A DNA stretch of 21,678 nt from a virus. Every line of letters starts with the position of its first letter. Position 1 is the stretch's first letter. The DNA lies in the IMG/VR virus record IMGVR_UViG_3300005262_000098, positions 1 to 21,678 of that record. One strand, written 5' to 3'. Under the pieces are notes generated by a model. It was not told the origin of the DNA, ran no database searches, and saw only the letters and a program-made list of their open reading frames with translations. Positions 1 to 19,361 of this stretch are shown here, in pieces. Position numbers and translations under genes: made by a program.

Positions 1-480
1 ATGATGCGTTGGCCGTCCGATGGCCCTACCAGCGGCAACGATGATGACGATTGGAATATGGATGGCGGCCTTGAGGCTTGGAACACCGAGCCGAAGAAGA
101 AGGTCGCCATAAACTACCCCGGCTTCAACACTACCCGCGATCCTATGAAGGAATATTACGATCGGCTTGGGTTCGATCCAGCTACGATGGAACATGCGGA
201 CTTGGTAAGGCTCGAGGACGAAGCTCATCAGCGGTGGCTTGCTGAGGTCCCGAGCTTGCCGCTGAACAAACTTGAGAGAAAGGTCATGGCGCAACTCGCT
301 GCGACGGGAGCGAACGTAAAGATCTCATCGAAGGAGCTTAAACACTGTGGTCCAGATACAGAGGAGCGCCTGTTGGCTCGGGGTTTCATCAAGACCTTCC
401 CGATGGTGAAGTTCCCTGATCGGGTCGGATTCTACATGTTGACCGAGGCAGGCTATGGGGAATGGAAATCTCGGCAATGA
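1..480 (+). CDS. Hypothetical protein, C-terminal winged-helix-like
   Basis: This is an open frame of at least 159 residues that touches the left edge, so the true start may lie upstream. The N-terminal 30 residues are acidic with an Asp run (DDDD near residue 14). The last ~70 residues look like a small winged helix: helices around LERKVMAQLAATG, a likely recognition helix, then LLARGFIK and a beta hairpin ending YMLTEAGYGEW. That ending is common in small winged-helix proteins. I do not recognise a family or function. It overlaps the next gene by ATGA, so the two are probably translated together as part of the left early or regulatory cluster. Confidence 0.6.
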   Translation: MMRWPSDGPTSGNDDDDWNMDGGLEAWNTEPKKKVAINYPGFNTTRDPMKEYYDRLGFDPATMEHADLVRLEDEAHQRWLAEVPSLPLNKLERKVMAQLAATGANVKISSKELKHCGPDTEERLLARGFIKTFPMVKFPDRVGFYMLTEAGYGEWKSRQ

Positions 481-689
481 CCAAGCGAGCCATATTCACC
501 AATGCTGAACTGAAACGAATGGCCGATTTGGCAAACTCCGAAGGCGTCGTGGTCGAGCTTGAGCGAGAAGGTTCAATTATTCGCGTGATGCCCTTTAGGT
601 CTTCTCACGTCATCAGACCAAAGGCATCACGGGAAAGAGAGGCCGAAACAGCTTTAGTCGAATGGCTCGCAAGCCAAGAGCATAAGTGA
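477..689 (+). CDS. Small protein, tandem paralogue 1 (MTRAAF type)
   Basis: The protein has 70 residues. I chose the ATG at 477 because it overlaps the previous stop as ATGA and gives an N-terminus, MTKRAIFTNAELKRM, like that of the following gene. The pattern is a helix with small residues (ADLANSEG) followed by a beta strand pair around VVVELEREGSIIRV. Similar small proteins starting MTRA.F are, as far as I recall, frequent in Rhizobiales prophages and islands near excisionase-like genes; their function is unknown. It is the first of three related proteins in a row. An upstream start at 462 is possible but less likely. Confidence 0.65.
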   Translation: MTKRAIFTNAELKRMADLANSEGVVVELEREGSIIRVMPFRSSHVIRPKASREREAETALVEWLASQEHK

Positions 690-696
690 GGTTGTC

Positions 697-1002
697 GTGA
701 CCCGTGCAGCTTTCCGTCAAGCTGACATCGAGCGCATAATCCGGGCAGCAAAGGCGGCCGGTGCCATAGTGCAGATCGACCTGCGGACGCTCGTGGTGAC
801 AATCCATCCTGACAGAGCTGATGGAATCAAAATCCCAGCGAGTATGGCGCCAGACGGCCCAGAGAACTGGGATGACCTACAGCCGGAAGACTTCACGTCA
901 TTGGCCGAATGGCAGGCGTGGAGAGATCGAGAACGTGTTCGCGAAACGGCGGCCGCCCAAAGCTCACCCAAGCGAAGACTTGGCCGCAGACCGAAGACAT
1001 AA
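697..1002 (+). CDS. Small protein, tandem paralogue 2 (MTRAAF type)
   Basis: This 101-residue protein starts at GTG 697, seven bases after the previous stop. Its first 40 residues (MTRAAFRQADIERI..., AKAAGAIVQIDLRTLVVTI) match the layout of the proteins before and after it: an amphipathic helix, then a two-strand hairpin. It has an extra C-terminal part rich in Trp, Asp and Glu (ENWDDLQPEDF, EWQAW) and ends in a basic tail (RRLGRRPKT). The family occurs in rhizobial prophages without known function. The acidic-aromatic middle and basic tail might mediate protein or DNA contacts, but that is a guess. Confidence 0.65.
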   Translation: MTRAAFRQADIERIIRAAKAAGAIVQIDLRTLVVTIHPDRADGIKIPASMAPDGPENWDDLQPEDFTSLAEWQAWRDRERVRETAAAQSSPKRRLGRRPKT

Positions 1003-1044
1003 GGTGAACTTCATTCCTTGTGATGATTGCGCTGGAGATCCGAA

Positions 1045-1230
1045 GTGGAAAGCGAACGATATAGTTGGAGAAGGGCAGCGATTCGCATGGCAGCCGATGT
1101 CGCCAAGGAGAAGGATGTAATCATCAGACTCGAAAGGGACGGCTCCATCACCGTATCGCCCGCTGACATTTCCGCCACCGATGCATTGAGAGAGTTCATT
1201 GCTTCAAAGACAGATCCAGAAATTTTCTGA
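1045..1230 (+). CDS. Small protein, tandem paralogue 3
   Basis: This protein of about 61 residues repeats the pattern of its two upstream neighbours: a basic helix (RRAAIRMAADVAKEKD), then IIRLERDGSITVSP, which resembles VVELEREGSIIRVMP in the first copy. I prefer GTG 1045 because a GGAGA sequence at about 1034 gives good Shine-Dalgarno spacing and the start then aligns with paralogue 1. TTG 1027 and ATG 1087 are alternatives. The C-terminus (ATDALREFIASK) resembles the ETALVEWLASQ end of copy 1, so copies 1 and 3 look closest to each other. The function is unknown. Confidence 0.55.
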   Translation: MESERYSWRRAAIRMAADVAKEKDVIIRLERDGSITVSPADISATDALREFIASKTDPEIF

Positions 1231-1243
1231 GGCCCTGGTATCT

Positions 1244-1579
1244 ATGGTAGACGACCAAATCGGCGATGATGACCCAATTCCGCTAGCTGTCGCCGCCAAG
1301 ATTCTTTTCCGCGGAACGGTGACAAAATCCTCGCTGCGCACTGAGGCGCGAAAGGGCAACCTTGAAGTTATTCGAATTGCTAACAAGGACTTCGTGACGA
1401 AGCGGGCCGTTCGGAGAATGATCGAGCGGTGCACTATCCCAGCGAAGGAACTGCCGGCAACTTCATCGCCGAGGACAGAGAATTCTCCAGTAACAGCCCA
1501 GGAGGCATTGCGTTGGCGCCTCAAGGCCAGACGCGAAGGTAAGTTGTCAACAAATGATCAGAGCGGGAGTTCGAAATGA
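1244..1579 (+). CDS. Excisionase-like helix-turn-helix protein
   Basis: The protein has 111 residues. The first 70 carry a short MerR/excisionase-like DNA-binding layout: DPIPLAVAAKILF as first helix, SSLRTEARKGNLEVIRI as recognition region and wing, then KDFVTKRAVRRMIERC. Proteins with this exact layout are common beside integrases of Rhizobiales prophages and islands. The rest is a polar tail rich in Ser, Thr and Lys. ATG 1244 is preferred because it precedes the conserved domain directly; a longer start at 1199 would overlap the previous gene. Its stop overlaps the next start as ATGA. Likely role: excision or transcription control, by inference from the fold only. Confidence 0.6.
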   Translation: MVDDQIGDDDPIPLAVAAKILFRGTVTKSSLRTEARKGNLEVIRIANKDFVTKRAVRRMIERCTIPAKELPATSSPRTENSPVTAQEALRWRLKARREGKLSTNDQSGSSK

Positions 1580-1797
1580 CGAATAAGATCATCGATACAA
1601 ACTCGTTTGCCGATCGGTTTCTCAAGCTCCGCGAGGTCAAAGTGATGACTTCGCTTGGGTCGACAACGATCTATAAGATGATGAACGAGGGCAGATTCCC
1701 GAGGCCCCGCCAGTTAGGGCCGGCGTGCGTTCGGTGGATGGAATCCGACATTGAAAAATGGATGGAAGATCTTCCGATAAGAGGGACTGAACGGTAG
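1576..1797 (+). CDS. AlpA-family phage regulator
   Basis: This 73-residue protein fits the AlpA-type winged helix throughout its length. It reads FLKLREVKVMTSLGSTTIY (first helix and turn), then KMMNEGRFPRP (recognition helix and the typical G.FP.P turn), the wing RQLGPACVRW and the closing helix ESDIEKWMEDL. AlpA proteins are small activators or excisionase-like factors that bind DNA near prophage promoters and attachment sites. It overlaps the upstream HTH gene by ATGA and is followed after two bases by another candidate DNA-binding protein, so the three probably act together. Its target site is not visible. Confidence 0.8.
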   Translation: MTNKIIDTNSFADRFLKLREVKVMTSLGSTTIYKMMNEGRFPRPRQLGPACVRWMESDIEKWMEDLPIRGTER

Positions 1798-1799
1798 CC

Positions 1800-2174
1800 G
1801 TGGTTGATGAACCTGGGCGCGTGCGTCTCGAGGATATGATTGGCCACGATGAGTTGGTTGAAAAATACGACTGGCTTAGCGGTCAGATGCTCAACAAGTG
1901 GAAGAGCACCGGGGCAATCAGGTTCTTCCATGGCGCCCGAGGAAAGGTCATGTACCCGCTGCAAGACGTGGAAGCGGCATTGAACGCCGATCTGCAGCTA
2001 GGAGAAGCCGTTGCTCCCGGGCAGAAACCGGTGATGACAAGCCAAGGAAAGATGGTACCTGCGTCTTCAACAATGTCCGAAGCCGACCAAATCAGAGAAC
2101 GCATGTTCCGTGAAAGCTTAGTACCAAGGAATCGGCGCAACAGTGGCACGATAGGCGGGAGGACTCGAAAATGA
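1800..2174 (+). CDS. Helix-turn-helix protein, excisionase-like
   Basis: This 124-residue protein starts at GTG 1800, just after the AlpA-like gene. Residues ~12-65 show a short winged-helix layout: HDELVEKYDWLSGQMLNKWKSTGAI as helix-turn-helix, FFHGARGKVMYPLQDVEAAL as wing and last helix. The YPLQDVEAAL ending is typical of excisionase and MerR-like small DNA-binding proteins. The C-terminal half is polar and probably disordered, with a basic end (RNRRNSGTIGGRTRK). No catalytic motif is visible. It is the last gene of the left cluster; a 122-base gap follows. Confidence 0.6.
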   Translation: MVDEPGRVRLEDMIGHDELVEKYDWLSGQMLNKWKSTGAIRFFHGARGKVMYPLQDVEAALNADLQLGEAVAPGQKPVMTSQGKMVPASSTMSEADQIRERMFRESLVPRNRRNSGTIGGRTRK

Positions 2175-2296
2175 TCCCTGGCGACTTTCGCAAGTCCTAG
2201 TCTACAAGCCGACCGTAACCTAAGGGAGAATTCTCGCCATCGACATTCGCGCTAAATGTCAGCATGATGGTCTCACCTACCCTAGGGAAAGTTATT

Positions 2297-2662
2297 ATGC
2301 GTATTCCAATACTTGGCATTGCTGCGGTTGTCTTCTTGAGCTCGACCTCTCTGAGCTTTGCGGTCACATATCGCGCGCTATCGTCATTTCCTCAGCAGAC
2401 GAGGGATATTTATATCGCCGGCGTTGGTGAAGGAGTCTTCTGGTCGAATGCCGCAGCTCAGAGCCATGGAGATCCAGGTATGTATTGCCCGCCCCTGAAG
2501 CTGGGTATTACCGGAAATCAATATGTGAAACTTCTCGACGACTATGTTGCCGACAAGGCGCATTACCGATCGGATTTTTCGCCCCCGGACTCAGAGGTCG
2601 GGTTTCTTATGATCCTTGCATTGACCGACGCTTTTCCCTGTACGAATGGTCAGGGCAACTAA
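2297..2662 (+). CDS. Exported small protein, Rap1a/Tai-like
   Basis: The ATG at 2297 lies behind AGGGA and gives 121 residues. Residues 1-22 form a clear signal peptide (hydrophobic core, SFA before the predicted cut). The mature ~99 residues hold two Cys (64 and 115), enough for one disulphide. The layout DIYIAGVGEGV, then YCPP, then a predicted helix, then ILALTDAFPC resembles the Rap1a/Tai immunity fold, where the second Cys sits in a F.C ending. That family includes periplasmic immunity proteins of T6SS effectors, but many members are uncharacterised. No effector partner is visible here. The family match is by eye and moderate. Confidence 0.6.
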   Translation: MRIPILGIAAVVFLSSTSLSFAVTYRALSSFPQQTRDIYIAGVGEGVFWSNAAAQSHGDPGMYCPPLKLGITGNQYVKLLDDYVADKAHYRSDFSPPDSEVGFLMILALTDAFPCTNGQGN

Positions 2663-2681
2663 GAACTTGGGGAAGTATTCG

Positions 2682-2999
2682 ATGCGGTCTTTATTCTTGG
2701 GCATGGGACTCGCACTTGTCACCGTCCCAGCACTCGCGAAGCAAGAATCGGAGTTTGTTGAAAAGGTTGCTATCTTGGCCGTCGGTCAAGGTGTCTGCGG
2801 AATGCCGGTGGATGACGGCGGAGCCATGCAGATGGCTATAGGCTCGGCAATGATCCAACTGGCAATCAGCAAGGACGCCGTCATCGCGCGTGCAAGGAAA
2901 CGTGCCCATCGCATTGTAGACGACATACAGCTGCACCGAACTCAAAACACGTTCTGCCATGCATTCACCTACTATCTGCAGAACGGCTATCCGCGCTAA
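2682..2999 (+). CDS. Exported small protein, unknown
   Basis: This 105-residue protein starts 20 bases after the previous stop. Residues 1-19 are a signal peptide (MRSLFLGMGLALVTVPALA). The mature part has two Cys (39 and 92) and a long helical middle (AMQMAIGSAMIQLAI, then ARARKRAHRIVDDI). It is not obviously similar to its upstream partner except in size, export signal and Cys pair. I chose the internal ATG because it begins the signal peptide; the upstream in-frame start at 2646 would overlap the previous gene. The family is not recognised. The tandem arrangement suggests two periplasmic proteins made together. Confidence 0.6.
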   Translation: MRSLFLGMGLALVTVPALAKQESEFVEKVAILAVGQGVCGMPVDDGGAMQMAIGSAMIQLAISKDAVIARARKRAHRIVDDIQLHRTQNTFCHAFTYYLQNGYPR

Positions 3000-3030
3000 T
3001 GGCCCTGTCGACGTTGCAGGAGTGGTGATC

Positions 3031-3255
3031 GTGCGCGTTGCACCCGATGTCACTTTACGATCAGTCGCGCTCAGTCTTCCCGATCCTGTCGTGGATGGCC
3101 GGGATCGCGCGGCTTGCGCGGCCTGGTACGGAGCGGTGGTTCTGTGTCGCGCAGCAGTGGGCGAGATGACTTACGAGGAAGCTTTGTCATGCCCGCAGTC
3201 CAGCAGACAAAGCCGAGGGAGTCGAGTCGGAACAACGTTTCGCTTGCGTGGTTAG
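3031..3255 (+). CDS. Possible small protein, unknown
   Basis: This possible 74-residue ORF starts at GTG 3031 with AGGAG at about 3018-3022. Its middle, RDRAACAAWYGAVVLCRAAVGEM followed by TYEEALSCP, has three Cys and looks like a helix pair, which is more protein-like than a chance frame. The ends are low in recognisable features and the C-terminal 20 residues are basic and polar. It directly follows the two exported proteins but has no signal peptide itself. It may be a chance ORF. Confidence 0.3.
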   Translation: MRVAPDVTLRSVALSLPDPVVDGRDRAACAAWYGAVVLCRAAVGEMTYEEALSCPQSSRQSRGSRVGTTFRLRG

Positions 3256-3309
3256 CTCATAGGTGGCTGGGTGGTCGGCCACCATGGCGTTGGCCTGAGG
3301 CTACGTCAT

Positions 3310-3342
3310 GCCCGCCGCCTCCACTCATCGCGGGCGGCGGGC
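3310..3342. other. Perfect 10-bp GC-rich hairpin
   Basis: An inverted repeat with arms GCCCGCCGCC and GGCGGCGGGC around a 13-base loop lies between the small ORF ending at 3255 and the converging DUF6894-type gene. There is no T run on either side, so it is not a classical intrinsic terminator. It could still separate converging transcripts. Confidence 0.4.
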
Positions 3343-3365
3343 GCTGTCACGTGAGGCTTCACTGA

Positions 3366-3596
3366 TCAGTCGAGCACAAATCTAAAGGGTAATGTCAGGA
3401 CGACATTGCCGCTTTCGTCGGTAACCTCAAACCGCATCCCATCGATAGGGTCGCCATCAAGCACCATATCCGCAATCATTTCCCGGGCAGCTGTAAATGC
3501 TTCCTTTTTGGCCGCCTCGACGTCGGGAAAATCGACGCCTTGATCGTCCGGGCTGAAGATGTCGCCACTACGGATATGGAAATAATACTTTGGCAT
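3366..3596 (-). CDS. DUF6894-type small protein
   Basis: The protein has 76 residues. The pattern MPKYYFHIRSGD, then DDQGVDFPDVEAAKKEAF, then a helix and a final strand pair FEVTDESGNVVLTLPF matches DUF6894, a short family very common in Rhizobiales. Members are single-domain proteins of 70-90 residues with no established function. The start at 3596 is the family's conserved MP.YYF start; the frame stays open to 3809 but the extra residues do not look like the family. The gene points against its neighbours, so it is a separate transcription unit. Confidence 0.75.
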   Translation of the reverse strand: MPKYYFHIRSGDIFSPDDQGVDFPDVEAAKKEAFTAAREMIADMVLDGDPIDGMRFEVTDESGNVVLTLPFRFVLD

Positions 3597-3841
3597 GCCG
3601 CTGAAACTGATCAACCGATGGTTTGTTCCGGTACCCAACTCTTGACGGCGGCGTCTGATGGCGTTCCCCTTGCAAAGCGAGGCTAGGTCATCCACGCCGT
3701 CTACACTCACCAGCGGCAGGGCGCCACCTGAGAAGGCCATTTGGCTGCTCGCCTCGCAACACCTGGGAACATTTTCTCTAGTGAAATGTTCGGTCGGCAA
3801 GGAGATCAACCACCTTCCTGTTCAACTGGTTCGGTTTCCCC

Positions 3842-3884
3842 GGCCCGCCGCAAAGCAGGATTCCCTCAGAGCCCGCGGCGGGCC
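3842..3884. other. Perfect 10-bp hairpin
   Basis: The arms are GGCCCGCCGC (3842-3851) and GCGGCGGGCC (3875-3884), with a 23-base loop. There is only a short TT after the stem on the + strand. It resembles the hairpins at 3310-3342 and 4001-4027 in stem length and GC content. Its role is unknown. Confidence 0.4.
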
Positions 3885-4000
3885 TTCCGTCGATATCTCG
3901 TTAGGAACAAAGCTCGGGGAGCAGAGTTTGGTGCATGCGAGTGCCGGGTGTGCGGAACTCGCGGCTACGTCGGCAATCACCAAGTCTGACGGCGCAGCCA

Positions 4001-4027
4001 GGCCCGTCGCTTGGGGGGCGACGGGCC
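4001..4027. other. Perfect 10-bp hairpin, terminator-like stem
   Basis: The arms are GGCCCGTCGC (4001-4010) and GCGACGGGCC (4018-4027), with a 7-base loop. No T run follows on either strand. It lies 45 bases before the frameshifted small gene at 4072, so it may close an upstream transcript or structure the leader of that gene. Confidence 0.45.
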
Positions 4028-4071
4028 GAACGAACTTTGACCGTGTCGCCTGATATCACTACAGTTTAGAA

Positions 4072-4309
4072 ATGAGCGATATTCTCCCCCCCCCCCCTCG
4101 TCAGCAAAGATCATCCCGACCGGCATCTCTGTTGCCAGTTCGCATTGCATGGCGCGTTCGCCGGTGTTGCTAATAGAGCGGTGGCCGCCGGCTGGTCCGC
4201 AATGGAAATTGCGGCCGCTCTTGTCGACCTGGCAGACAATCATTTGCTGGGGCTTATCACGATCGGCGAAGTTGAAGCCATTGTTGAGGCGATCCGAAAG
4301 CAATCCTAA
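4072..4309 (+). pseudogene. Small helical protein, frameshifted in a C12 run
   Basis: ATG 4072 opens MSDIL and runs into twelve C at 4086-4097. As written the frame then goes wrong. With eleven C the reading continues through PPPLVSKDHPDRH, a Cys pair (HLCCQF) and a strongly helical C-terminal half (ANRAVAAGWSAMEIAAALVD, NHLLGLITIGEVEAIVEAI) to TAA 4309, giving 78 residues. The downstream frame is clearly protein-like, so this is one gene with a single-base change. It could be a sequencing error, a true loss, or a slippage-controlled switch. I do not know the family. No good Shine-Dalgarno is visible. Confidence 0.6.
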
Positions 4310-4400
4310 TTTTCTTGCGAGCGGCGGGAACATATTCGCCAGACCGCGGTTCGAACATCAGCGAACTCTTTAGTTCGTCCCGCGGCGTCGCCTCCGCGGT

Positions 4401-4435
4401 AGCCCGTCACGCGCCGGTGACGGGCTTTTATTTTG
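4401..4435 (+). terminator. Intrinsic terminator, + strand
   Basis: A perfect 10-bp stem (AGCCCGTCAC and GTGACGGGCT) with a 6-base loop is followed directly by TTTTATTTT. It would end transcription coming from the small gene at 4072-4309 and separate it from the gene starting at 4493. A smaller hairpin (CGAACT, AGTTCG, 4362-4377) stands just before it. Confidence 0.75.
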
Positions 4436-4492
4436 CCCATCTTGACTCTCTTCCTTCCCCAGAACATTTTGAGAACAAACTACGGAGCTGAA

Positions 4493-4804
4493 GTGGCCGA
4501 GAAAGCGGGTGCGCCGGCTGTCGCGGCGCTGCGATATAAATGGCGGGTGACCTGGCCGAATCCAGAAGACGCGGATAGCCATAAGACGGATTTCTGCGGA
4601 TGGGATGGAGAGATCAGAATAGGCCGGATCAGGCTCGAGTCGGGTGGACCGGTAAAGGGCCTGTGGCAGTGGAGTGGCCAAGGCCCGATAGTCAGGCAGA
4701 GATTGCTACCGCACCAAGGATATGAAGAGACCGCGAGGAAAGCTGCCCGGATGGTCGAGGATTATTACGACCGGCTGATGGCTCACAATGGTGACGACGG
4801 GTGA
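4493..4804 (+). CDS. Hypothetical protein, Trp/Gly-rich
   Basis: GTG 4493 sits 5 bases behind GGAG and starts right after a terminator, giving 103 residues; the longer start at 4433 would begin inside the terminator's T run. The protein reads as a small beta-rich domain (RYKWRVTWPNPE, DFCGWDGEIRIGRIRLESG, GLWQWSGQGP) followed by a helix (EETARKAARMVEDYYDRLM). The pattern of a strand with W.W and a closing helix is common in small rhizobial hypothetical proteins with an unknown role. The SRAP gene starts 49 bases downstream, possibly on the same transcript. Confidence 0.6.
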   Translation: MAEKAGAPAVAALRYKWRVTWPNPEDADSHKTDFCGWDGEIRIGRIRLESGGPVKGLWQWSGQGPIVRQRLLPHQGYEETARKAARMVEDYYDRLMAHNGDDG

Positions 4805-4853
4805 AGACGCGTCCTAGAGGGTGCTGAGGCTAAACGAAAGGGAGAGAGTAGGA

Positions 4854-5597
4854 ATGTGTAACCTCTACAATGTCACTACAAACCAGGAAGCCATCCGACA
4901 ATTCACCAGGGCAATGATCGACAGCATCGGCAACCTACAACCATCGCTCGACCTCTATCCCGACCAAATGGGTCCGATCGTCCGGAATACAGGGGCCGGC
5001 CGTGAATTGGCGATGGTGAGATGGGGACTTCCGAGTTCGCAACAGGCGCTCATGCAGGCCACGAAAAAACGCGCCGACAAGCTCCAGGCAAAGGGCACAC
5101 CATTCGACTTCGGCCAGTTATTGAGGATGGAGCCAGATGGCGGCACGACCAACGTCAGGCGCACCGATAGCAAACATTGGACCCGCTGGCTCGGCGTCGA
5201 AAACCGATGTGTTGTGCCATTCACACGGTTTGCTGAACCGGACCACGGAAGCCGTGTGGAGGGAGGCCGCGTTCCGAATGCATGGTTTGCCGTAAACGAT
5301 GATCAGCCGCTCATGTTCTTTGCGGGCATATGGGTGCCGCAATGGCGATCGGTTCGAAAGATCCGGGAGGGGGAGGTTACCGTCGATCTCTATGGTTTCC
5401 TGACAACGGAGGCGAACAGGGTCGTTGGCGAAATCCATGAAAAGGCGATGCCGGTCATTCTTCGGAACGTGGAAGAGATCGAACTATGGATGACTGCCTC
5501 ATGGGAGGAAGCGAAGCGGCTTCAACGTCCCCTGCCGGACGACGAGCTGCTAATGCTCTTCTCGGAAGAGCCTGAGAGGAGCAAGAGCAATGTCTAA
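4854..5597 (+). CDS. SRAP (YedK/HMCES-type) DNA-lesion shielding protein
   Basis: This 247-residue SRAP protein starts at ATG 4854 because the family needs Cys2 after removal of Met1. Cys2 forms a covalent thiazolidine link with abasic sites in single-stranded DNA. Visible family elements are MCNLYN at the start, W57 in MVRWGLP, Asn100 in TTNVRR (substrate-binding Asn/Arg region), Glu128 in FTRFAEP, and His195 in IHEKAMP (active-site Glu and His). The length fits the family (~220-250). SRAP proteins act in the cytosol on replication-associated AP sites and are often carried near prophages or SOS genes. It overlaps the next gene by 8 bases. Confidence 0.93.
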   Translation: MCNLYNVTTNQEAIRQFTRAMIDSIGNLQPSLDLYPDQMGPIVRNTGAGRELAMVRWGLPSSQQALMQATKKRADKLQAKGTPFDFGQLLRMEPDGGTTNVRRTDSKHWTRWLGVENRCVVPFTRFAEPDHGSRVEGGRVPNAWFAVNDDQPLMFFAGIWVPQWRSVRKIREGEVTVDLYGFLTTEANRVVGEIHEKAMPVILRNVEEIELWMTASWEEAKRLQRPLPDDELLMLFSEEPERSKSNV

Positions 5598-5895
5598 ACG
5601 ACTTGATGATCTGACCGAATTGGTACAGGAAATCGACGCTAGGGCGTATGTCAGTGAGATGTTCGCAGCCCAACTTCTATTGCGGGTCGGGCTTCTTTTT
5701 GACAACCCGCGCGGCTTTGTTTCCGAAGTCATCGAGAATGTTCGCCGCGACTTGGTAGCAGGCTTGAGCGGTGTCGGCACCGCGGAGGGTGTTCAAAGAG
5801 GAACGGATGCCGTCAACCACTTGGAGAGCTTTCACCGACGTCTTCAGCCGATTTTGGACGAACTTCCTTCATCGGCCCCGCCGAGCGTAAACTGA
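5590..5895 (+). CDS. Hypothetical helical protein
   Basis: This 101-residue, mainly helical protein starts within the last codons of the SRAP gene (8-base overlap), which points to coupled translation. It reads as helices around LDDLTELVQEIDARAYVSEM, FAAQLLLRVGLLFD, SEVIENVRRDLVAGL and a final LESFHRRLQPILDEL. There are no Cys, membrane segments or catalytic motifs. The family is not recognised. Its only functional hint is the tight link to the lesion-shielding gene. Confidence 0.65.
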   Translation: MSKRLDDLTELVQEIDARAYVSEMFAAQLLLRVGLLFDNPRGFVSEVIENVRRDLVAGLSGVGTAEGVQRGTDAVNHLESFHRRLQPILDELPSSAPPSVN

Positions 5896-5896
5896 C

Positions 5897-6092
5897 ATGA
5901 GCGACGAACAACGACAGACGCTGACACGTGGGCCGACCCTCTACGAACATTACTGCGAAGGGGCCGGCTGCAAGAAATGGGGCGCGCTCGGCTACGATAT
6001 CGGCCCGCGGCGAGACGCGCTGGTTTTGCTTTGAGCATCGCTGGGACGAATACCCCATGCCAAAGGGTGGCGCAGCAAGAGGCTGTTTTTGA
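5897..6092 (+). pseudogene. Small Cys/His protein, frameshifted
   Basis: ATG 5897, one base after the previous stop, opens MSDEQRQTLT, then YEHYCEGAGCKKWGALGYDI, and is cut short by TGA 6034. Removing one C in the CCC at 6004-6006 restores the frame: GETRWFCFEHRWDEYP and on to TGA 6092, giving 64 residues. The restored protein has C...C...C..H spacing typical of a small zinc-binding fold; similar Cys/His small proteins are frequent in rhizobial genomes. The single-base change may be a sequencing error or true decay. It is the second such shift in 2 kb. Confidence 0.55.
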
Positions 6093-6263
6093 CCGCCGGA
6101 CGGCCTGATTTCCACGACATTTTACGAATATCTTGCGCCGGTCCCCTTTGGTAATTTTCACCGCGCTAAAGGGCTGGTTCCCCGGCGTAGGATCGTGATC
6201 CTCGGCCAGCGTAACGTAGAAAATAGCGCTGGCCGAAACACCGCAGGTTCATTGGCGGGACAA

Positions 6264-6300
6264 ACAAAAAAGCCCCTATCCGGGATAGGGATAGGGGCTT
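6264..6300 (-). terminator. Intrinsic terminator, - strand
   Basis: A perfect 12-bp stem (AAGCCCCTATCC at 6270-6281, GGATAGGGGCTT at 6289-6300) with a 7-base loop is followed, read on the - strand, by a run of T (A run at 6266-6271). It is placed to end the - strand transcript that carries the membrane pair at 6804-7807. The G-rich arm repeats GGGATA, so slippage-prone pairing is possible. Confidence 0.75.
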
Positions 6301-6570
6301 GCAGTTATTAGTGTATCCAGCAGTCGGGCGCGGGCACGTCCGACCTGCGTGTATTTTGCATATTTTTATAACAACCACAAGACGTCTATTTCTTCGTCTC
6401 TCTTACCGGGACAGACGCACCGGCGCGACTGGCTTCACGCGACATGGAGAAATCCGTCGCATCGATAGAGCGCGGGAAAATGGAAGGTGCGGGATTATAA
6501 CGCTAGAAATTCACCCTTTGGTAGTATAATATTAGGAAGCGGGCAAGCTCCACTCTTGGGCGCACTAAGT

Positions 6571-6626
6571 GAGCCGGTATCGGTCTCCCGGCTCTGCCTT
6601 CCCCCCAATGAGGTAGAGCCGTTTTC
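6571..6626 (+). repeat. Dispersed hairpin element, copy 1
   Basis: An 11-bp stem (CGGCTCTGCCT at 6589-6599, AGGTAGAGCCG at 6611-6621) is followed by TTTTCCC on the + strand. It is repeated at 9606-9660. One G-T pair is kept in both copies and forms a G-U pair only if the + strand is the RNA. It could be a terminator or a small structured RNA. Confidence 0.55.
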
Positions 6627-6655
6627 CCTCCAGCGAGCCGAGCGATCTGATAACC

Positions 6656-6763
6656 ATGTGGCCGATCGGCAAGAATGTCGGTTCACCGAAAAACGACCGA
6701 CCCGATATCATCGAGCCGATCGAAAAGCGGGCCGGCGACCATCCGGAGCCGACGCTGATATGA
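6656..6763 (+). CDS. Doubtful 35-residue ORF
   Basis: ATG 6656 gives MWPIGKNVGSPKNDRPDIIE and ends at TGA 6763. The composition (Pro, Asp, Glu, Lys) looks more like a protein than chance, and its stop overlaps an ATG that opens a 17-residue frame to 6813. There is no visible Shine-Dalgarno and no known family. Confidence 0.2.
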   Translation: MWPIGKNVGSPKNDRPDIIEPIEKRAGDHPEPTLI

Positions 6764-6803
6764 ACGACGACTTGAAAAAAGACAAATCGCCAGCCACAGA
6801 GCG

Positions 6804-7361
6804 CTATTCCTGATTTTCCTTGATCGGCATTTCTATCGGCGCCTGCAAGCCAGAACGATCTGGAGGCGGTAGAAGTATCGTTGCAACTGTTCCTTGATCT
6901 CCGAGACGATACCGCGCGATAAGCTCGTCAGGGGAAGCCACCAATAAATCAGTCAACCGCTTTTCGAGTGCATCGCGCCACTGTGAGCCGGAACGTATGG
7001 CGCTCTTGATCTGCGAAGTCAAAATCTGGACTTCGCTATTTCGAAGTGCCCAGGCGCGTTCAATAAGATCGGATCTTTGCTCGATCGCACGATATTTGCG
7101 GTCACGAGCGCACAACACCCCAAGCAGGAGTCCGCAGGAGCCCGAAACGGGCGTCACGAAAGGCGCATAGGGCAATAGAGATAACTCGGCAAGCGCGCCA
7201 AACGTGGCTCCCGCAAAGAGGAAGAACCCAAGAACTCCCAAAATCGCGCTCGTGGAAAGATTTGTCGTTTCTCTTGATGCGGTCGATATTGCCTTGAGTG
7301 AGGTTCGCGCTTTTTCGGCAGCTCTGCTCAAATCGACAGTACTCGATTTGAGCAACGACAT
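6804..7361 (-). CDS. Two-helix membrane protein, pair member B
   Basis: This 185-residue protein has two strong membrane segments (about residues 38-62 and 66-86) joined by a short turn. An N-terminal cytosolic helix precedes them (DLSRAAEKARTSLKAIS). The ~95-residue soluble C-terminus is charged and helical (ERAWALRNSEVQILTSQIKS, then WRDALEKRLTDLLVASPDEL). No catalytic motif or known family. Its start overlaps the stop of the upstream membrane gene by one base (TAATG), so the two are translated together. It sits downstream of the lysis genes, where phages often carry exclusion or conversion genes; that role is an inference. Confidence 0.7.
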   Translation of the reverse strand: MSLLKSSTVDLSRAAEKARTSLKAISTASRETTNLSTSAILGVLGFFLFAGATFGALAELSLLPYAPFVTPVSGSCGLLLGVLCARDRKYRAIEQRSDLIERAWALRNSEVQILTSQIKSAIRSGSQWRDALEKRLTDLLVASPDELIARYRLGDQGTVATILLPPPDRSGLQAPIEMPIKENQE

Positions 7362-7807
7362 TAGGCGACCCTCTGGTTCAATACTTCATCATTGACTATG
7401 AAGTCGTCCAAAATGGCTGCTTGCGATGCTTCATAGCTTAGAAGCCGAAGCCGTACAGAAACAACAAAACATGCACAGGCCGCCCACATAACCAAGACAA
7501 GAAAACAAATCAGAACTGTGTGTTCAACATAGAAAGACGGCGAAGTATCTTGGTTTAACAGGCTCCGTCCGGAAAGCAGAAATGCCGTCAGTCCGCTAAC
7601 AAGTAACAAGCAAGAACTCGCGGCCACCATCCAGTAATTCGCAAGCCACCGCAACTGCCGATCTGCCGATTGCTCTATAAATCTCGATTCAGAATTATGG
7701 GCGAAACTAGATGAGAGAGCTTCGAGATCAGCTTTGAGTTGAGCCCGTTCCCGTGACAGCGATTCCTCTCGCCTTTCCTCTTCGCGAGGGCTTTCCTGCT
7801 GGCCCAT
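7361..7807 (-). CDS. Two-helix membrane protein, pair member A
   Basis: This 148-residue protein begins with a very charged coiled-coil-like segment (residues ~4-32, rich in Glu and Arg), then two membrane segments (about 57-81 and 93-117) and a ~30-residue cytosolic tail. GAGGAG stands just before the ATG. It is the first gene of a pair with the next membrane protein, sharing one base at the junction. The shared topology (helix, two membrane spans, helical tail) suggests the two assemble in the inner membrane. I do not recognise the family; a holin role is unlikely because the soluble parts are large. Confidence 0.7.
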   Translation of the reverse strand: MGQQESPREEERREESLSRERAQLKADLEALSSSFAHNSESRFIEQSADRQLRWLANYWMVAASSCLLLVSGLTAFLLSGRSLLNQDTSPSFYVEHTVLICFLVLVMWAACACFVVSVRLRLLSYEASQAAILDDFIVNDEVLNQRVA

Positions 7808-7923
7808 AGCTCCTCACCCTCATCTGCCAAGACATAAATTAACCTAGATTCAACTTGATCGGAAGATAGTATTATTCGAAATGCAGCCGGTGATCGCCAA
7901 CGCGGCTTAAAATCGACGACGAG

Positions 7924-8253
7924 TTACGGCGCCGGCCGTCCACCCTTCACCCACCGCAGCATCGCCTCAAAAAACAGATCGGCGATCCACATCGCGCACA
8001 CGCCAACAACGAAAGCTGTGGCATTCATCGCGGCAACATCCTGTGCAGGCAACGGCCAATTGATAGCGCGAAGATAGAAGAGCACCGGCTCCGTCAGATA
8101 GGCAGCAGCAATAGCTCCGCAGATAGGCGACGCAATAATTTCACGAGTAGTATAACGACGGCGGGACAAACCCCGAAGAATGCCGCCAGACAGGCCCGCA
8201 ACAATAACGCCGGCTTTGATCCCGAGCGCGTCGAAGAAGTCGTTGATGCTCAT
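7924..8253 (-). CDS. Holin-like three-helix membrane protein
   Basis: This 109-residue protein has three hydrophobic segments (about 12-30, 40-62 and 74-94) and a basic C-terminal end (RWVKGGRPAP). The Arg-rich loop after segment 1 (RGLSRRRY) sets the topology. Size and shape fit phage holins that let the endolysin reach the cell wall. It is the last gene of the lysis module and starts in an ATGA overlap with a very short upstream ORF. Holin activity is inferred from topology and context; the family is not identified. Confidence 0.65.
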   Translation of the reverse strand: MSINDFFDALGIKAGVIVAGLSGGILRGLSRRRYTTREIIASPICGAIAAAYLTEPVLFYLRAINWPLPAQDVAAMNATAFVVGVCAMWIADLFFEAMLRWVKGGRPAP

Positions 8254-8312
8254 ATGCTGTCCTTGGAAGACATGAAGACGAGAATTTCCGGCGCGGTAGC
8301 CGGACCAATCAT
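8250..8312 (-). CDS. Possible 20-residue ORF linking holin genes
   Basis: ATG 8312 overlaps the stop of the 29-residue ORF upstream (ATGA), and its own stop overlaps the start of the holin-like gene (ATGA). The product would be MIGPATAPEILVFMSSKDSI. It may serve only to carry ribosomes to the holin start. The same frame is open up to 8438 but the longer version overlaps two other genes. Confidence 0.35.
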   Translation of the reverse strand: MIGPATAPEILVFMSSKDSI

Positions 8313-8398
8313 AGAACTGAATGCCACGCCAGCAGCATGAAGGCCGCCAGCGTGTTTGCTGTGAACAGAAATCCGATCAGAAGAAGCGCGGATTTCAC
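8309..8398 (-). CDS. Possible 29-residue membrane peptide
   Basis: GTG 8398 overlaps the stop of the 63-residue membrane protein (GTGA). The product, VKSALLLIGFLFTANTLAAF followed by MLLAWHSVL, is a single membrane span. Start and stop both overlap neighbours by four bases, which chance rarely produces twice. It could be a lysis-timing peptide or a translational link. Confidence 0.45.
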   Translation of the reverse strand: MKSALLLIGFLFTANTLAAFMLLAWHSVL

Positions 8399-8586
8399 TG
8401 GGGAGGAGTCGGTGGCTGGGGTGGCTTGTTGGGGACAAGCCAGACGAGAATAGGCGTTATGCCCGTCACGATGGCCGTCACGGTCGTTTCATCCAAACCG
8501 ATCCTGCCGGGCCAGATGAGATTGACGATGCCGATGAGCGCCATAACCAGGGCAACGATGGCTTTGTTGTATGCTCCGATGTTCAT
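8395..8586 (-). CDS. Small two-helix membrane protein, holin-like
   Basis: ATG 8586 follows AAGGAG and gives 63 residues: MNIGAYNK, a first membrane span (AIVALVMALIGIVNLI), a short turn (WPGRIGLDETT), a second span (VTAIVTGITPILVWLV) and a Pro-rich end (NKPPQPPTPPQ). Similar proteins of this size lie in many phage lysis cassettes. It follows the lipoprotein gene by 10 bases and is followed by two very short overlapping ORFs and the three-helix protein. A holin or antiholin function fits topology and context but is not proved. The frame open to 8721 is rejected because it overlaps the lipoprotein gene. Confidence 0.7.
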   Translation of the reverse strand: MNIGAYNKAIVALVMALIGIVNLIWPGRIGLDETTVTAIVTGITPILVWLVPNKPPQPPTPPQ

Positions 8587-8596
8587 GAACTTCTCC

Positions 8597-8929
8597 TTAT
8601 TGTGCCGACTTGGCTTCCTGAAGAGCTGTGGAAACGACCGCATAGGCCTGCGCGACGAGCACAACGGCATTGATGACGGTCGTATGGGATGGATCGGTGC
8701 AGATCGTCTCAACGCCGGCATAGGCAGCGTTTTCTTTCGAGACGGTCGAGGCTTTGATTTTTCCGGTCAGCGCGACCGCAGAGAAGGCCGTGTGAGCGGT
8801 TTCGAGAGCTGAGCAGACCTTCGGGAGGTTTTGCTCGATCGCCGTATCCACGGACGTTGTTTGGCATGCGGTGAGGGTAGCGACGAACAGCATGAGGCTG
8901 CCAGCCATCGCGAAATGGAGGATGCGCAT
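8597..8929 (-). CDS. Small lipoprotein in the lysis module
   Basis: This 110-residue protein has a lipoprotein signal: a basic start, a hydrophobic core, and the lipobox LTAC with Cys22. The mature part is Ala/Thr/Val-rich and helical with two further Cys (near CSALETAH and ICTDP). Its place between endolysin and holin-like genes suggests an outer-membrane spanin-type or envelope role, but no inner-membrane spanin partner is evident, and the mature domain lacks the Pro-rich character of Rz1. It may therefore be a separate conversion factor. Lipidation is well supported; the function is open. Confidence 0.7.
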   Translation of the reverse strand: MRILHFAMAGSLMLFVATLTACQTTSVDTAIEQNLPKVCSALETAHTAFSAVALTGKIKASTVSKENAAYAGVETICTDPSHTTVINAVVLVAQAYAVVSTALQEAKSAQ

Positions 8930-8956
8930 GAGGGTGGTCCTTGTTTTTGGGGAGGA

Positions 8957-9448
8957 TCAGGCTTCGTTGTTGGAAACGACGTCGTTGGAATTCACGACAG
9001 GCAATGCTCCAGTCGGCATAGGTTCGCCGGCTGGCCAGCGATAGGAGGTAACGCGGTCAGTCGCGAAAGGCTTGATATTGACGGCGTCCGACTGATTGCC
9101 GCCGAGAACCATGATGTTGCCCTTCTGATCCTTGCCGACGACAAAGCCGACATGGCCGCCGCCGGTGCGCTTGAAGGTGACGACGCAGCCGACGGCCGGG
9201 GCTTTGAGCGAGACGCCCCAATTCTGGTAGGAGAGCGCCAAACCGGATCGGGTGGACTTGATCCCAACGCTTTCGAAAACGAAGCCCACGAAGCCCGCGC
9301 ACCAGGGCGTGGCGTCGTCTCGGAACGGTAGCCCGAGCTTCCCCCACATCTGGACAATTTCCGGGTTGTTACCCGATCCCACGACCTCGTGAAGGCCGAT
9401 ATATTTGCGCGCAAAAGCGAGCCACCGCGGCTCGGTAGCTTGGGTCAT
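8957..9448 (-). CDS. Endolysin, NlpC/P60-like (TIGR02594 type)
   Basis: ATG 9448 gives 163 residues: an N-terminal helix (RWLAFARKYIGLHEVVG), then TPWCAGFVGFVFESVG with the likely nucleophile Cys50, a strand region GCVVTF, and GGGHVGFVVG with catalytic His99. The third polar residue is probably Asn118 in LGGNQSD. This layout matches the TIGR02594 cell-wall peptidase group, often phage endolysins. There is no signal peptide, so release to the periplasm should need a holin, and holin-like genes follow. An upstream start at 9643 adds residues unlike the family. It is the first gene of the lysis module. Confidence 0.85.
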   Translation of the reverse strand: MTQATEPRWLAFARKYIGLHEVVGSGNNPEIVQMWGKLGLPFRDDATPWCAGFVGFVFESVGIKSTRSGLALSYQNWGVSLKAPAVGCVVTFKRTGGGHVGFVVGKDQKGNIMVLGGNQSDAVNIKPFATDRVTSYRWPAGEPMPTGALPVVNSNDVVSNNEA

Positions 9449-9605
9449 GATTATGCTCCGTTTGAATTGGGTTTCTGAAGGGGCGATTGACCGGCCATGA
9501 GGAAATCGTCGATTCCCGACACGTGTCTTCAGTTTGGCTTCATCTTGCGGTGGTAGCAAACCTTGCGCGAGCAAGACGCCCCCCCGGAAAATGCTCGCGC
9601 TGCAT

Positions 9606-9660
9606 GAGCCGTACCCGGGTCCCTGGCCCTGCCTCCCTGCCACGAGGTAGGGCCACTTTC
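9606..9660 (+). repeat. Dispersed hairpin element, copy 2
   Basis: An 11-bp stem (TGGCCCTGCCT at 9624-9634, AGGTAGGGCCA at 9645-9655) is present, with the same flanks as copy 1 at 6571-6626. Compared with copy 1, two base pairs differ on both sides of the stem so that pairing is kept. A CTTTC follows, weaker than the T run after copy 1. Confidence 0.55.
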
Positions 9661-9760
9661 ATCCGGTCAGCTCTTTTCGGGGGATAGCTATATTCCTCAC
9701 CTTGCCGTCCGCTAGAAGGCCGCTAGGTCACGTTACGCAGAGCAGCACTTGGGGGAATCA

Positions 9761-9886
9761 GTGGCTTACGATTGGAGCGGCGTCAGGACGCGCCGAATAA
9801 AGGCATTGAAGGTGGGAATTTCACTGATGATTGCAGCCGCAGCTTTGGCAGGCCCGGCAATGGTGCTGCTTCGCTCGCATCACTGA
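9761..9886 (+). CDS. 41-residue membrane peptide
   Basis: GTG 9761 lies behind GGGGGA and opens VAYDWSGVRTRRIKALKVG, then one membrane span (ISLMIAAAALAGPAMVLL) and a short basic end. A basic N-terminus before a single span predicts an inner-membrane protein with its N-terminus inside. The MAYDWSG..TRR start looks like a small rhizobial membrane protein type I recall but cannot name. It stands alone on the + strand between tail and lysis genes. Confidence 0.5.
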   Translation: MAYDWSGVRTRRIKALKVGISLMIAAAALAGPAMVLLRSHH

Positions 9887-10025
9887 AGCCCGGCCGCGAT
9901 CTGAAACGGCACACGCTACTGTGAATATTAATCTCGCATTTCTGACCCGAGGAGGTTTGCTCTGGTTTGACCCGGCAACGAGCGATCTATTGTGCGCGCT
10001 GGAGCGGGGACCCCAACGCGACGGC

Positions 10026-10069
10026 CGGGAGTCCCGCAGCAACCCTTGGTCGGGAACGTGGGACTCCCG
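10026..10069. other. 10-bp inverted repeat
   Basis: The arms CGGGAGTCCC and GGGACTCCCG pair perfectly around a 24-base loop. It lies just past the end of the tail-fibre gene (10148), on the side where late transcription would leave it, but there is no T run. It could slow or structure the late transcript. Confidence 0.35.
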
Positions 10070-10147
10070 TCATCAAGACTAGAGCTTCGCAGCCGCGGTA
10101 AATCGATCATGTCATTTTTCCATTGGGGATTGGATGCAGGATGCAGC

Positions 10148-12475
10148 TCAATAAATCAGCGTTGCTTCAGCGTTCTCTTGGCCCATGCTTCTGAACTCGA
10201 ACATGTAGTAGCCGACGTTCATTCCGGAGAACGTGAGGTATAGCCAACCTTGTTCTGTCGTCTGTGGGAACCGGGTTTTGTCCAAACCGGTAGGCCCGCT
10301 CAGAGTGGGGTTGTAGGCTGTGAAGCCGACACCGGCTGCGACCGGTTCGACTGCCAGCGGGGTTGACTTGTAAATGACGGACATCACGAGCCCCGCCGCG
10401 GATGTCCCATCCCGCCACAGCAGAAGTTTTGTCACCCCCGTATCGGGGGGAGATGAGGTCGTGGCCACGCATTTTATTGTTACCTCGACAGTGCCGAATG
10501 CAAAGTAGTTGCCGGGGTCCTGCGTGCGACCCATCAGCGCCTTAGGCAATGGAATGCAAACATCGCCGTTGATATCGGCACGGTCGGCCGTGATAGGGCT
10601 GCTAGGCAGCGAGAAAACGAGCAGCTCTTCTTTTGCCGGCTGAAATATGCTGCTCTGTACGCCAACCTCGTCAAGCTGGCGCGGTTCTATGAAGACTTCA
10701 TTGATGAAGACTGTACCGGCGCCTGTCGCCTTGCCATAGAACGTGAATGTTTTCCAGCCACGTCCAACAAAGGACCCTGCATATGTCTTCTTGCCGAGGA
10801 GATAAGTCTTCGCAACATAAGAGGTGGACTCCTGAACAGATTTCTGCCTGGTGCTTTTGAGAACGGCGCGATTGATCGCTTTCCCATCGATCGGCGCCGA
10901 AAGCTCCACCGTCGCACCATCGAACGTACCGCCCGTCAGATAGACGTCTGCGGCTTCGGCATCGAGATAAAACGCCATCGTCCATGCGCTATTTTCGGCG
11001 ACACCCAAAAGCGACGTATTCGACGTAAAGCCCCCATCGCCACTCGCGCCGAATGTGCCGCCCTGACGATAGGAGCCGATGCCTTCCGTGCCCCGGATTG
11101 GCTGCATGTTGACTTCGGAAGAAACTTTTCGAATGCCGGCGGATAGCGCCCCGGACATGGTGAATGACGCGACCGCATCGCCGAACTTGGCATATCCGTA
11201 TTTGTTGAAATGGATGGCGTCGCTGTAGACATCCGTCGGGAGGCAGTACTGATGCACTTCGACGCCTTCAAAGACAGGGCAGCCGTAATGTTCGCCAAGG
11301 GCCTTTGCGAACTGGGCATACTGCGATTGCAAGACGAAACTGTTGTTTAGAGTCTGGGACGGAGGCGTCAGCAGAACGACGCCAATACCCCACATAATAT
11401 CGCGCTGGATCAGCTTCTCGAGATAGGTGCAGTATTCTGCATAGGTGGCACCGTGGGCGCCGTTGGCGTCATTCGTGCCGATCATGATGTAGGAGACGTC
11501 GGCATCCGGCTTATCGGGCCAACGCGTGAAGGCATCCTTCGCCGTGTCACCGGAATAGCCCAGATTGGTCACAGTGATCGTCGCGTTCGTGAGCGCCGCA
11601 AGCCTGTCGTGCATCCTCTGCGGGTATTGAATAGGAGCACGGTCTTCGACAAAACCAGTCGGTGGCGGCAATCGATCTGCGGAGGTGGTGTCCTGACCAT
11701 AAGTCAAGCTGTCGCCACGGGTGACGAAGTTGAACGTCGCGGCGTTCATCAGATTGAAATCGGCTTTGGCCAGAAGCTTTCTATTCCGCAGCGCCATCCA
11801 TGCTTTGTCGCGGTCGTCGCTGACGCGGTACCATGTACGGCCATCCGCTGACGCCGCAAAGTCAAGCGAGCCCGTATTCGTTGCTACAAACAAACCGCCC
11901 TGTTCATCGTCGATCGCAGCAAGCCCGTCGATGATGATTGCGTTTGCGCCTGCTGGTATCGTCTTTTCAGGGAGGCCGGCAACCGTCTCGTAAATCGCTG
12001 CGTCAAACGCAGGCAGTTCACCCGGCTGAACAGCGGTATCGGCCTTTGCACCCTGCTCTTGCGTGGCGGCGTGGATGGCCGCCAAATAGGCTTCGTCATC
12101 GACGGCGTTCGATACGCTTCGGACGAATTCAGAAACGGTAAACGTCGCTGCCTCCCCAATGCCTGTGAAATAGATGGCCTGATCCGCTCCAGGGTTCACA
12201 TCGTTGATTGCTGCCAACGGGGCGCCGATGATCACCTCTTGAATATTGCTCACGAGGTTCGAAAACGAAATCGCCGAGTAATTGTCGATGTCGCTGTCCC
12301 ATGCGAGGAAGAGGGTCTTCGTCGGATTGTCTACCGCCGGCACCTGAACAAGCTGACCAAAATCAGGACGTACGACAACATCCATATTGTTGCGGTCAGC
12401 CGTTAGGCCGTTCGTCGCCGAAATATTGGCCGGGAACCGCGCGACTGCTCGCAACCGAAGTGAGGTTGTGCTCAT
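10148..12475 (-). CDS. Tail protein with SGNH/GDSL esterase domain
   Basis: The protein has 775 residues. Residues 1-~245 look like a virion-attachment region of a type shared by rhizobial phage tail proteins (MSTTSLRLRAVARFPANISA start). Residues ~248-440 form an SGNH hydrolase: block I RGDSLTYG with nucleophile Ser256, block II NLGYSGD (oxyanion Gly), block III IGTNDAN with Asn335, block V DAIHFNKYG with Asp419 and His422. The last ~330 residues are beta-rich and probably bind the receptor or form the trimer. Such enzymes remove acyl groups from capsule or O-antigen during attachment. It starts in an ATGA overlap with the preceding gene and ends the tail operon. Confidence 0.88.
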   Translation of the reverse strand: MSTTSLRLRAVARFPANISATNGLTADRNNMDVVVRPDFGQLVQVPAVDNPTKTLFLAWDSDIDNYSAISFSNLVSNIQEVIIGAPLAAINDVNPGADQAIYFTGIGEAATFTVSEFVRSVSNAVDDEAYLAAIHAATQEQGAKADTAVQPGELPAFDAAIYETVAGLPEKTIPAGANAIIIDGLAAIDDEQGGLFVATNTGSLDFAASADGRTWYRVSDDRDKAWMALRNRKLLAKADFNLMNAATFNFVTRGDSLTYGQDTTSADRLPPPTGFVEDRAPIQYPQRMHDRLAALTNATITVTNLGYSGDTAKDAFTRWPDKPDADVSYIMIGTNDANGAHGATYAEYCTYLEKLIQRDIMWGIGVVLLTPPSQTLNNSFVLQSQYAQFAKALGEHYGCPVFEGVEVHQYCLPTDVYSDAIHFNKYGYAKFGDAVASFTMSGALSAGIRKVSSEVNMQPIRGTEGIGSYRQGGTFGASGDGGFTSNTSLLGVAENSAWTMAFYLDAEAADVYLTGGTFDGATVELSAPIDGKAINRAVLKSTRQKSVQESTSYVAKTYLLGKKTYAGSFVGRGWKTFTFYGKATGAGTVFINEVFIEPRQLDEVGVQSSIFQPAKEELLVFSLPSSPITADRADINGDVCIPLPKALMGRTQDPGNYFAFGTVEVTIKCVATTSSPPDTGVTKLLLWRDGTSAAGLVMSVIYKSTPLAVEPVAAGVGFTAYNPTLSGPTGLDKTRFPQTTEQGWLYLTFSGMNVGYYMFEFRSMGQENAEATLIY

Positions 12476-12819
12476 TGCCTGACTACTCCATCAATGATCG
12501 GCAGTGAGCCCACCAGCTCCTGCTCCGTAATGTCTTCGCGTGTTATCGTGATGCCGATTTGGTAAGTGCCCGGTTCCAGACAGAGCATTTCGGCGGTGGT
12601 AAATCGCCATTGAATGATGCCGAAGGGTGTTAATGTGATGTGACCGTCTTCGGTTGTGCCGACGAGCGAATGACGAGATGGATCTTGCGATCGAACCTCA
12701 AGCCGAGCTTTGAGCCCCGTAAGGTCGTTGATCGTTTCGTTGGTGTCGTCGTCGACTATTTCTATGGTCCCGATCCAATCTGCGCGATTGGATATCGGTG
12801 CGAGATTTGCCTCGTACAT
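12472..12819 (-). CDS. Phage tail-associated protein, beta-sandwich-like
   Basis: This 115-residue protein has alternating strands: WIGTIEIVDDDTNETINDL, then LKARLEVRSQDPSRHSLVG, IQWRFTTAEMLCLEPGTYQI and GITITREDITEQELVGSLPI. Similar proteins in phage tail operons (Ig-like or baseplate-wedge type) carry the pattern L.PG.Y...I. Its exact role is unknown. It starts directly at the stop of the collar gene (TGAATG) and overlaps the esterase tail gene by ATGA, so the three are made together and probably assemble into the host-binding end of the tail. Confidence 0.65.
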   Translation of the reverse strand: MYEANLAPISNRADWIGTIEIVDDDTNETINDLTGLKARLEVRSQDPSRHSLVGTTEDGHITLTPFGIIQWRFTTAEMLCLEPGTYQIGITITREDITEQELVGSLPIIDGVVRQ

Positions 12820-13767: not shown

Positions 13768-13788
13768 TGGCCACTCCTAACGGAAATG

Positions 13789-13812
13789 AAAAAGGCCCCC
13801 ATTAGCGGAGCC
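13789..13812 (-). terminator. Possible - strand terminator before collar gene
   Basis: Read on the - strand, GGCTCC, a short loop and GGGGCC form a 6-bp stem with one G-U pair, followed by TTTTT (A run at 13789-13793). It is weak, but its place, between the ejection genes and the collar gene, would allow separate control of the host-binding genes. Confidence 0.4.
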
Positions 13813-13892
13813 AGATTGGAAACGGACACTGTGTCGGGTATGGCCTCGGCCAGCCTCTTTTCTTCTTCCCAAAGTTGAGGCATGTTCGCGGC

Positions 13893-14156
13893 ATGTCGAA
13901 CGGCCCAATCATCGATCACGATCCAGACGAACCTAAGAAGGGTTACAAACCCGTTTCTTGGTGGCTAGTCTGGGCAATCATCGCTTTTTGCTGGTGGGGA
14001 TATCTCTCCACCCATACCTTTGATTGGTACGCCGTCGCTGTAGGCCTAGGAACTGGCTGTATGCTGGCGACATGGGCGATCGAAATTACTGGCAATAAAG
14101 TTCCAGAAAACTGGAAGTCTAAGTCGGCGCGCCGAAAACGGGATGCGCAGTTTTAG
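13893..14156 (+). CDS. Two-helix membrane protein, moron-like
   Basis: ATG 13893 gives 87 residues: a charged start (SNGPIIDHDPDEPKKGYKPV), two membrane segments (WWLVWAIIAFCWWGYL and YAVAVGLGTGCMLATWAIEI) and a basic end (WKSKSARRKRDAQF). The first span is unusually rich in Trp. It lies on the + strand inside an operon otherwise on the - strand, ending only 10 bases from the converging ejection gene. That arrangement is typical of morons, extra prophage genes expressed in the lysogen. The family is not recognised; a role at the inner membrane, such as exclusion, is inferred. Confidence 0.65.
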   Translation: MSNGPIIDHDPDEPKKGYKPVSWWLVWAIIAFCWWGYLSTHTFDWYAVAVGLGTGCMLATWAIEITGNKVPENWKSKSARRKRDAQF

Positions 14157-14165
14157 GGATGGCCG

Positions 14166-18433: not shown

Positions 18434-18436
18434 GAG

Positions 18437-19359: not shown

Positions 19360-19361
19360 AG

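Follow-up and report, generated by a model that had tools for sequence, protein, structure and literature searches.

Is the small gene at positions 4072–4309 of the viral record IMGVR_UViG_3300005262_000098 switched off by a run of C lying just inside its start codon, in the manner of phase-variable genes, or does the run have a more ordinary origin? The whole stretch analysed here (21,678 nucleotides, hereafter the window) had been described in an earlier note, in which the reading frames before and after the run were assigned to one protein on condition that the run had 11 or 14 C instead of the 12 present. The features involved are the following:

4037..4065, plus strand: promoter-like site TTGACC-17-TACAGT (consensus scan); transcription is predicted to begin on the A of ATG 4072 or right beside it
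4072..4085, plus strand: start of the small gene, ATG AGC GAT ATT CT (M-S-D-I-L); MSDI is conserved in L077, L006, L007, and L009, where it is joined directly to the same protein body
4072..4173, plus strand: ORF obtained by translating the DNA with its 12 C, comprising 33 codons and a stop (4171–4173)
4086..4097, plus strand: run of twelve C and frame break; contig IMGVR_UViG_3300003374_000026 starts within it
4098..4309, plus strand: small-gene body, read in a frame of its own, with codons from 4097/4100 and TAA at 4307–4309 (PHROG 37486 family; dN/dS)
4401..4426, plus strand: intrinsic-terminator-like hairpin of 10 pairs followed by TTTATTTT (sequence scan); one BK313 copy has a related hairpin on its downstream side
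4854..5597, plus strand: gene for a SRAP-domain protein (SOS response-associated peptidase, YedK-HMCES family; Pfam PF02586, E = 1.3e-21)

The run is made of exactly 12 C, with TATTCT on its 5' side and TCGTCAGC on its 3' side, and is reached 14 bases from ATG 4072. Translated from this ATG with 12 C, the DNA reads MSDILPPPPRQQ... for 33 codons, up to a stop. The frame that follows the run, which is the one entered after 11 C, is open across the run as far as the TAA, reads PPPLVSKDHPDRHLCCQFALHGAFAGVANRAVAAGWSAMEIAAALVDLADNHLLGLITIGEVEAIVEAIRKQS and comprises 73 residues from 4088, and the third frame yields an unrelated tail of 91 residues, to 4373. With 11, 8, or 14 C, ATG 4072 falls in frame with the protein-like part, and the lengths proposed for a single protein across the run were thus borne out by the translations, with 8 C fitting as well.

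It is evident that C12 is a true outlier, far beyond chance in the window and in the genus. The second-longest C/G run in the window has 7 bases, and the expected number of C runs of at least 12 is 0.0014 per window under a first-order model and 0.0001 under a second-order one. Dinucleotide shuffling gave an expectation of 0.24 for C9, and the four overlapping matches were reached in no shuffle. C/G runs of at least 12 were present in only 18 out of 40 Rhizobium genomes, a rough count being ~25 runs in ~270 Mb.

As to what these other long runs look like, none of the ten long C runs inspected in Rhizobium genomes as parallel switches was clearly orthologous or convincingly placed at the start of a gene, and several look like assembly oddities. 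The very long C/G runs at L111, L104, and L107, which comprise a contig ending in C13 and internal runs of 53 and 34, look like assembly artefacts. In two different Rhizobium genomes (L103 and L105) the same C12 run occurs, alike down to its flanks (ATGTCG on the 5' side) and outside any obvious long reading frame.

The part after the run had been called protein-like from the letters alone, and this judgment is upheld by homology, by a family profile, and by the positions at which substitutions fall. Compared with Rhizobium plasmid proteins, the frame after the run has its best match at 57% identity over 72 residues (E = 6e-15), and the gene body matches PHROG 37486 (E = 1.3e-12, residues 8–56), the same PHROG that is matched by the intact relatives. 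A family profile search found members in 146 of 148 Rhizobium genomes, at one to nine per genome; searching genome contigs with the single protein as query gave no match. The best relatives begin MSDI, MIDI, or MTEI and continue unbroken into the same body, and ATG 4072 is thereby linked to the part at 4100–4306. Against relatives, dN is ~0.22–0.35 and dS is 1.4 or saturated (0.34 and 1.42 for this copy versus L077), with changes falling mainly on third positions (19/9/44 versus L068, and 22/17/38, at codon positions 1/2/3). Such values show a gene body under purifying selection. The same codon-position pattern is seen in comparisons among intact relatives, and therefore any inactivation would be recent and the body bears no old decay. 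Judged in this way, the small gene is a real one, of ~78 residues when in frame.

The predicted protein resembles the PHROG 37486/37258 family in the profile match of its body, in its similar length, and in the motifs (D/H)PDR.L.CQ.A and GW...E, and differs from the other inspected members in its poly-C tail and frame break. AlphaFold models the protein confidently as two helices (mean pLDDT of 92); the PDB yielded no fold match and no convincing sequence match for it, and Pfam, PADLOC, and NCBIfam no family match.

Upstream, the full arrangement is TTGACC-17-TACAGT-6-ATG, and TTGA is found ~34–38 bases before the ATG in ~30 of 50 rows of relatives (some rows being duplicates), and the closest relatives whose start is intact are among them. 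These include L006, L007, and L009 (TTGACG-17-GACATT-6-ATG), as well as L077, with a -35 of TTGACG at the same distance, and L068, L075, and L078, with TTGATG. This conserved putative promoter confirms ATG 4072 as the start codon. Since its spacing leaves no room for a Shine-Dalgarno sequence, the mRNA of the small gene is predicted to be leaderless, and apparently is so. A class of leaderless transcripts has been mapped in Sinorhizobium meliloti, with 171 leaderless transcription start sites (PMC3616915). The gene shares with the leaderless small-protein genes of rhizobia a promoter spacing that sets +1 at the AUG and the missing Shine-Dalgarno space; unlike them, it has been read from sequence only, and a subfamily of its relatives (L016, L030, L032, and L034) has a GGAGG leader.

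Two other accounts of the locus were rejected. One is a restart of translation after the run: the frame after the run has a TGA at 4073–4075 and no ATG, GTG, or TTG from there to the run, and its first ATG lies in the middle of the gene. The other is a chimeric join at the run, rejected because in relatives this start, promoter, and body are contiguous.

The relatives inspected do not share the run. Within the first 75 nt of about 50 of them the longest C/G run is 6, and none of these start regions has a C12-like tract; in place of the poly-C there are mixed proline codons or other residues (CAACCTCCTCGC, CCATCACCCCCG, and CCGCCGCCTTCC, the last one at the run position in the nearest DNA relatives, those of BK313). 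Being absent from all the relatives inspected, the tract is therefore private to the lineage of the window. The earlier note had held that orthologues without the C run would speak against a switch, and this is what every relative inspected displays. On these comparisons, the absence rules out a conserved ancestral switch and leaves a lineage-specific one possible. The tract is located in a variable, proline-rich tail ahead of the conserved (D/H)PDR.L.CQ motif; gaining or losing whole codons would be cheap there, and a shift of frame would abolish the protein.

Several of the relatives are broken in other ways. Copies in Rhizobium sp. BK313 (L045/L129, L126, and L127) lack the start codon, lack most of the coding sequence, or are split by ~1.3 kb; a copy with frame breaks is common to R. 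freirei, R. leucaenae, and two R. lusitanum (L049–L052), and the CB3060 and NXC24 plasmid copies retain the C-terminal half only (L066 and L067). Because several relatives are broken by unrelated lesions, the gene is dispensable, and with one to nine family members in a genome the loss of one is tolerable. Both points speak for ordinary gene decay, in which the 12-C form is a fixed and recent loss-of-function frameshift whose reversal is rare and irrelevant. We regard this as unlikely for the copy in the window, which has no second lesion and still keeps the codon-position pattern of a selected protein, and whose C12 tract is by its nature revertible.

In BK313, copies of the 3.3–4.5 kb region of the window lie on one replicon (G002:C1, at ~909–911, 975–977, and 1003–1004 kb), with the small gene broken differently.

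The length of the run can also be viewed through a second assembly. Pattern scans with the upstream and downstream flanks retrieved IMGVR_UViG_3300003374_000026 (37,466 bases) as the only other record of the same DNA. It corresponds to positions 4091–21678 of the window with 0 mismatches (~17.6 kb) and begins inside the C run, with seven C. Both records may come from related samples, and the independence of the two assemblies is uncertain; our literature search found no paper naming metagenome 3300003374. By our own estimate, the chance of a random contig end within these 12 bases is ~3 in 10,000, so the run itself probably broke this assembly. A contig of an isolate Rhizobium genome (L111) also ends in such a run, of C13. 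A contig end at the run is expected where reads disagree on its length, and is compatible with biological and with technical disagreement alike.

A technical origin would mean that the true run has 11 C (or 8 or 14), miscounted during assembly or library PCR, that the gene is intact, and that nothing is OFF. It would suit a body under purifying selection with no other lesion and with promoter and start intact, as well as the break of the other assembly at the same run. Illumina sequencing is reported to introduce spurious homopolymer indels, which in one metagenome data set were estimated to have affected up to ~1% of the genes, although most of the trouble lies above 14 bases (PMC8808543), and Taq PCR of a G10 tract yielded 9, 10, and 11 (PMC1891110). 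Set against this is the identity of the two assemblies over the remaining 17.6 kb, from which the general error rate appears low; moreover, even an allele with 11 C would be an extraordinary slippage-prone tract. All in all, we consider a miscount a strong alternative, if less likely than not.

Could the 12-C allele still give some protein? A +1 slip of the ribosome on CCC-CCC-CCC-CCU, or slippage of RNA polymerase in the run, might produce a low level of the full-length form. With CCC in the P site, a +1 shift would enter the CUC GUC frame directly, and CC[C/U]-[C/U] is the classical +1-prone motif, CCC-C at codon 2 having given at most 1% of +1 shift in E. coli (PMC4519876). Here the run starts at codon 5 (it is at codon 2 that shifting comes most readily), native m1G37 keeps shifts of this kind down, relatives have no conserved slippery site, and the expected output is at most ~1%, all of which makes recoding very improbable.

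The reading that we prefer, with a probability of roughly 0.42, is that of a genuine, recently arisen, and lineage-specific slippage-prone tract in a functional gene, which is OFF at 12 C and reversible by slipped-strand mispairing. In the lineage of the window, the variable proline-rich N-terminal tail would have turned into a pure C run, which on reaching 12 C would have put the body out of frame and this copy OFF. Slipped-strand mispairing at replication would then change the length of the run, the loss of one C or the gain of two (11 or 14 C) giving active protein, and 10, 12, or 13 C giving none. As a long C run in a reading frame is prone to such mispairing, the locus should behave physically as a translational ON/OFF (phase-variable) one. 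Three parts of this reading are inferences: the run truly has 12 C, its length differs between members of the population, and a switch here is of consequence for the element. Switching rates may be much lower in a rhizobium with mismatch repair.

How far, then, does the locus have the shape of a phase-variable gene that the earlier note had seen in it? One part stands: there is a real small gene, split by the run just inside its true start, and OFF as written. The other part, reversible switching, is putative. Like a contingency locus, the tract is longer than chance would give and lies inside a true gene whose frame is set by its length; unlike one, it is neither conserved nor present at other lengths among close relatives, and since no relative carries it there is no sign of a switch that has been selected and kept. 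Nor does the small protein show surface, modification, or restriction features, as the products of phase-variable genes typically do. The label "phase-variable" is no more than plausible for this copy, and on these comparisons it describes no ancestral trait of the family.

Elsewhere, C/G tracts of at least 8 switch genes in Campylobacter (PMC6321876), and in Bordetella, a high-GC genus, G/C tracts vary within single-colony cultures (PMC1891110). The locus is similar to the intragenic poly-G/C phase variation of Campylobacter, Neisseria, Helicobacter, and Bordetella (tcfA/bapC) in having a long stretch of C or G early in a reading frame, whose length means ON or OFF and for which slipped-strand mispairing is presumed. 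It departs from them in that a single length is known from one assembly, in that the tract is absent in the relatives inspected, and in that the gene is a small one of phage or plasmid type in Rhizobiaceae, not a surface or modification gene.

The element itself extends past the end of the window in IMGVR_UViG_3300003374_000026, where structural genes are followed by an integrase next to a fragment similar to a tRNA 3' end (L027). With this arrangement it looks like a prophage, and specifically like a Rhizobiaceae phage or prophage. The tRNA-like sequence, GGTCACAAGTTCGATCCTTGTCACGCCCACCA, is directly beside the integrase, without a full tRNA (L027:4050–4320; ~36.05–36.32 kb of that contig), and is probably an attachment site of the prophage. 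The left attachment site was not found, which limits how far the prophage can be taken to extend over 1–4085. A gene for an AlpA-type regulator or excisionase (1576–1797; PF05930, E = 3e-18) lies far from the integrase, which has an excisionase-like neighbor of its own in the second contig, and a second element may abut the prophage. On the minus strand, 10148–12475 encodes a large tail-region protein with motifs, read by eye, like those of GDSL/SGNH hydrolases (GDSLTYG, GTND, and DAIHFN).

The SRAP gene of the window is carried by the prophage, and genes of the same family also lie near or after small-gene relatives on plasmids of Rhizobium, as well as in further records; other relatives adjoin ligD, exonuclease III, or imuA genes. 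Given these neighbors, a role in DNA damage or DNA handling is the best guess, and the gene context suggests such a link for the small protein. Only one LexA box (GTTC-N7-GTTC or GAAC-N7-GAAC) was found, at 4462, downstream of the terminator. A bolder version of the preferred reading, which we hold to be quite doubtful, is that in a rhizobial phage or prophage a small, SRAP-linked gene with a leaderless mRNA has recently come under a poly-C contingency switch, so that lysogens or particles would differ in making a DNA-damage-associated protein.

If the run is fixed or was miscounted, the lesson is one of caution, a single long C run having ended a contig in one assembly and split a conserved gene in the other. 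A contingency switch of this kind, if true, would be unusual for a mobile element of a soil symbiont. A length that truly varies would mean that slippage-based switching exists in Rhizobiaceae, and does so on a temperate element; it would also give direct access to a very widespread, uncharacterised family of small proteins that adjoins SRAP genes.
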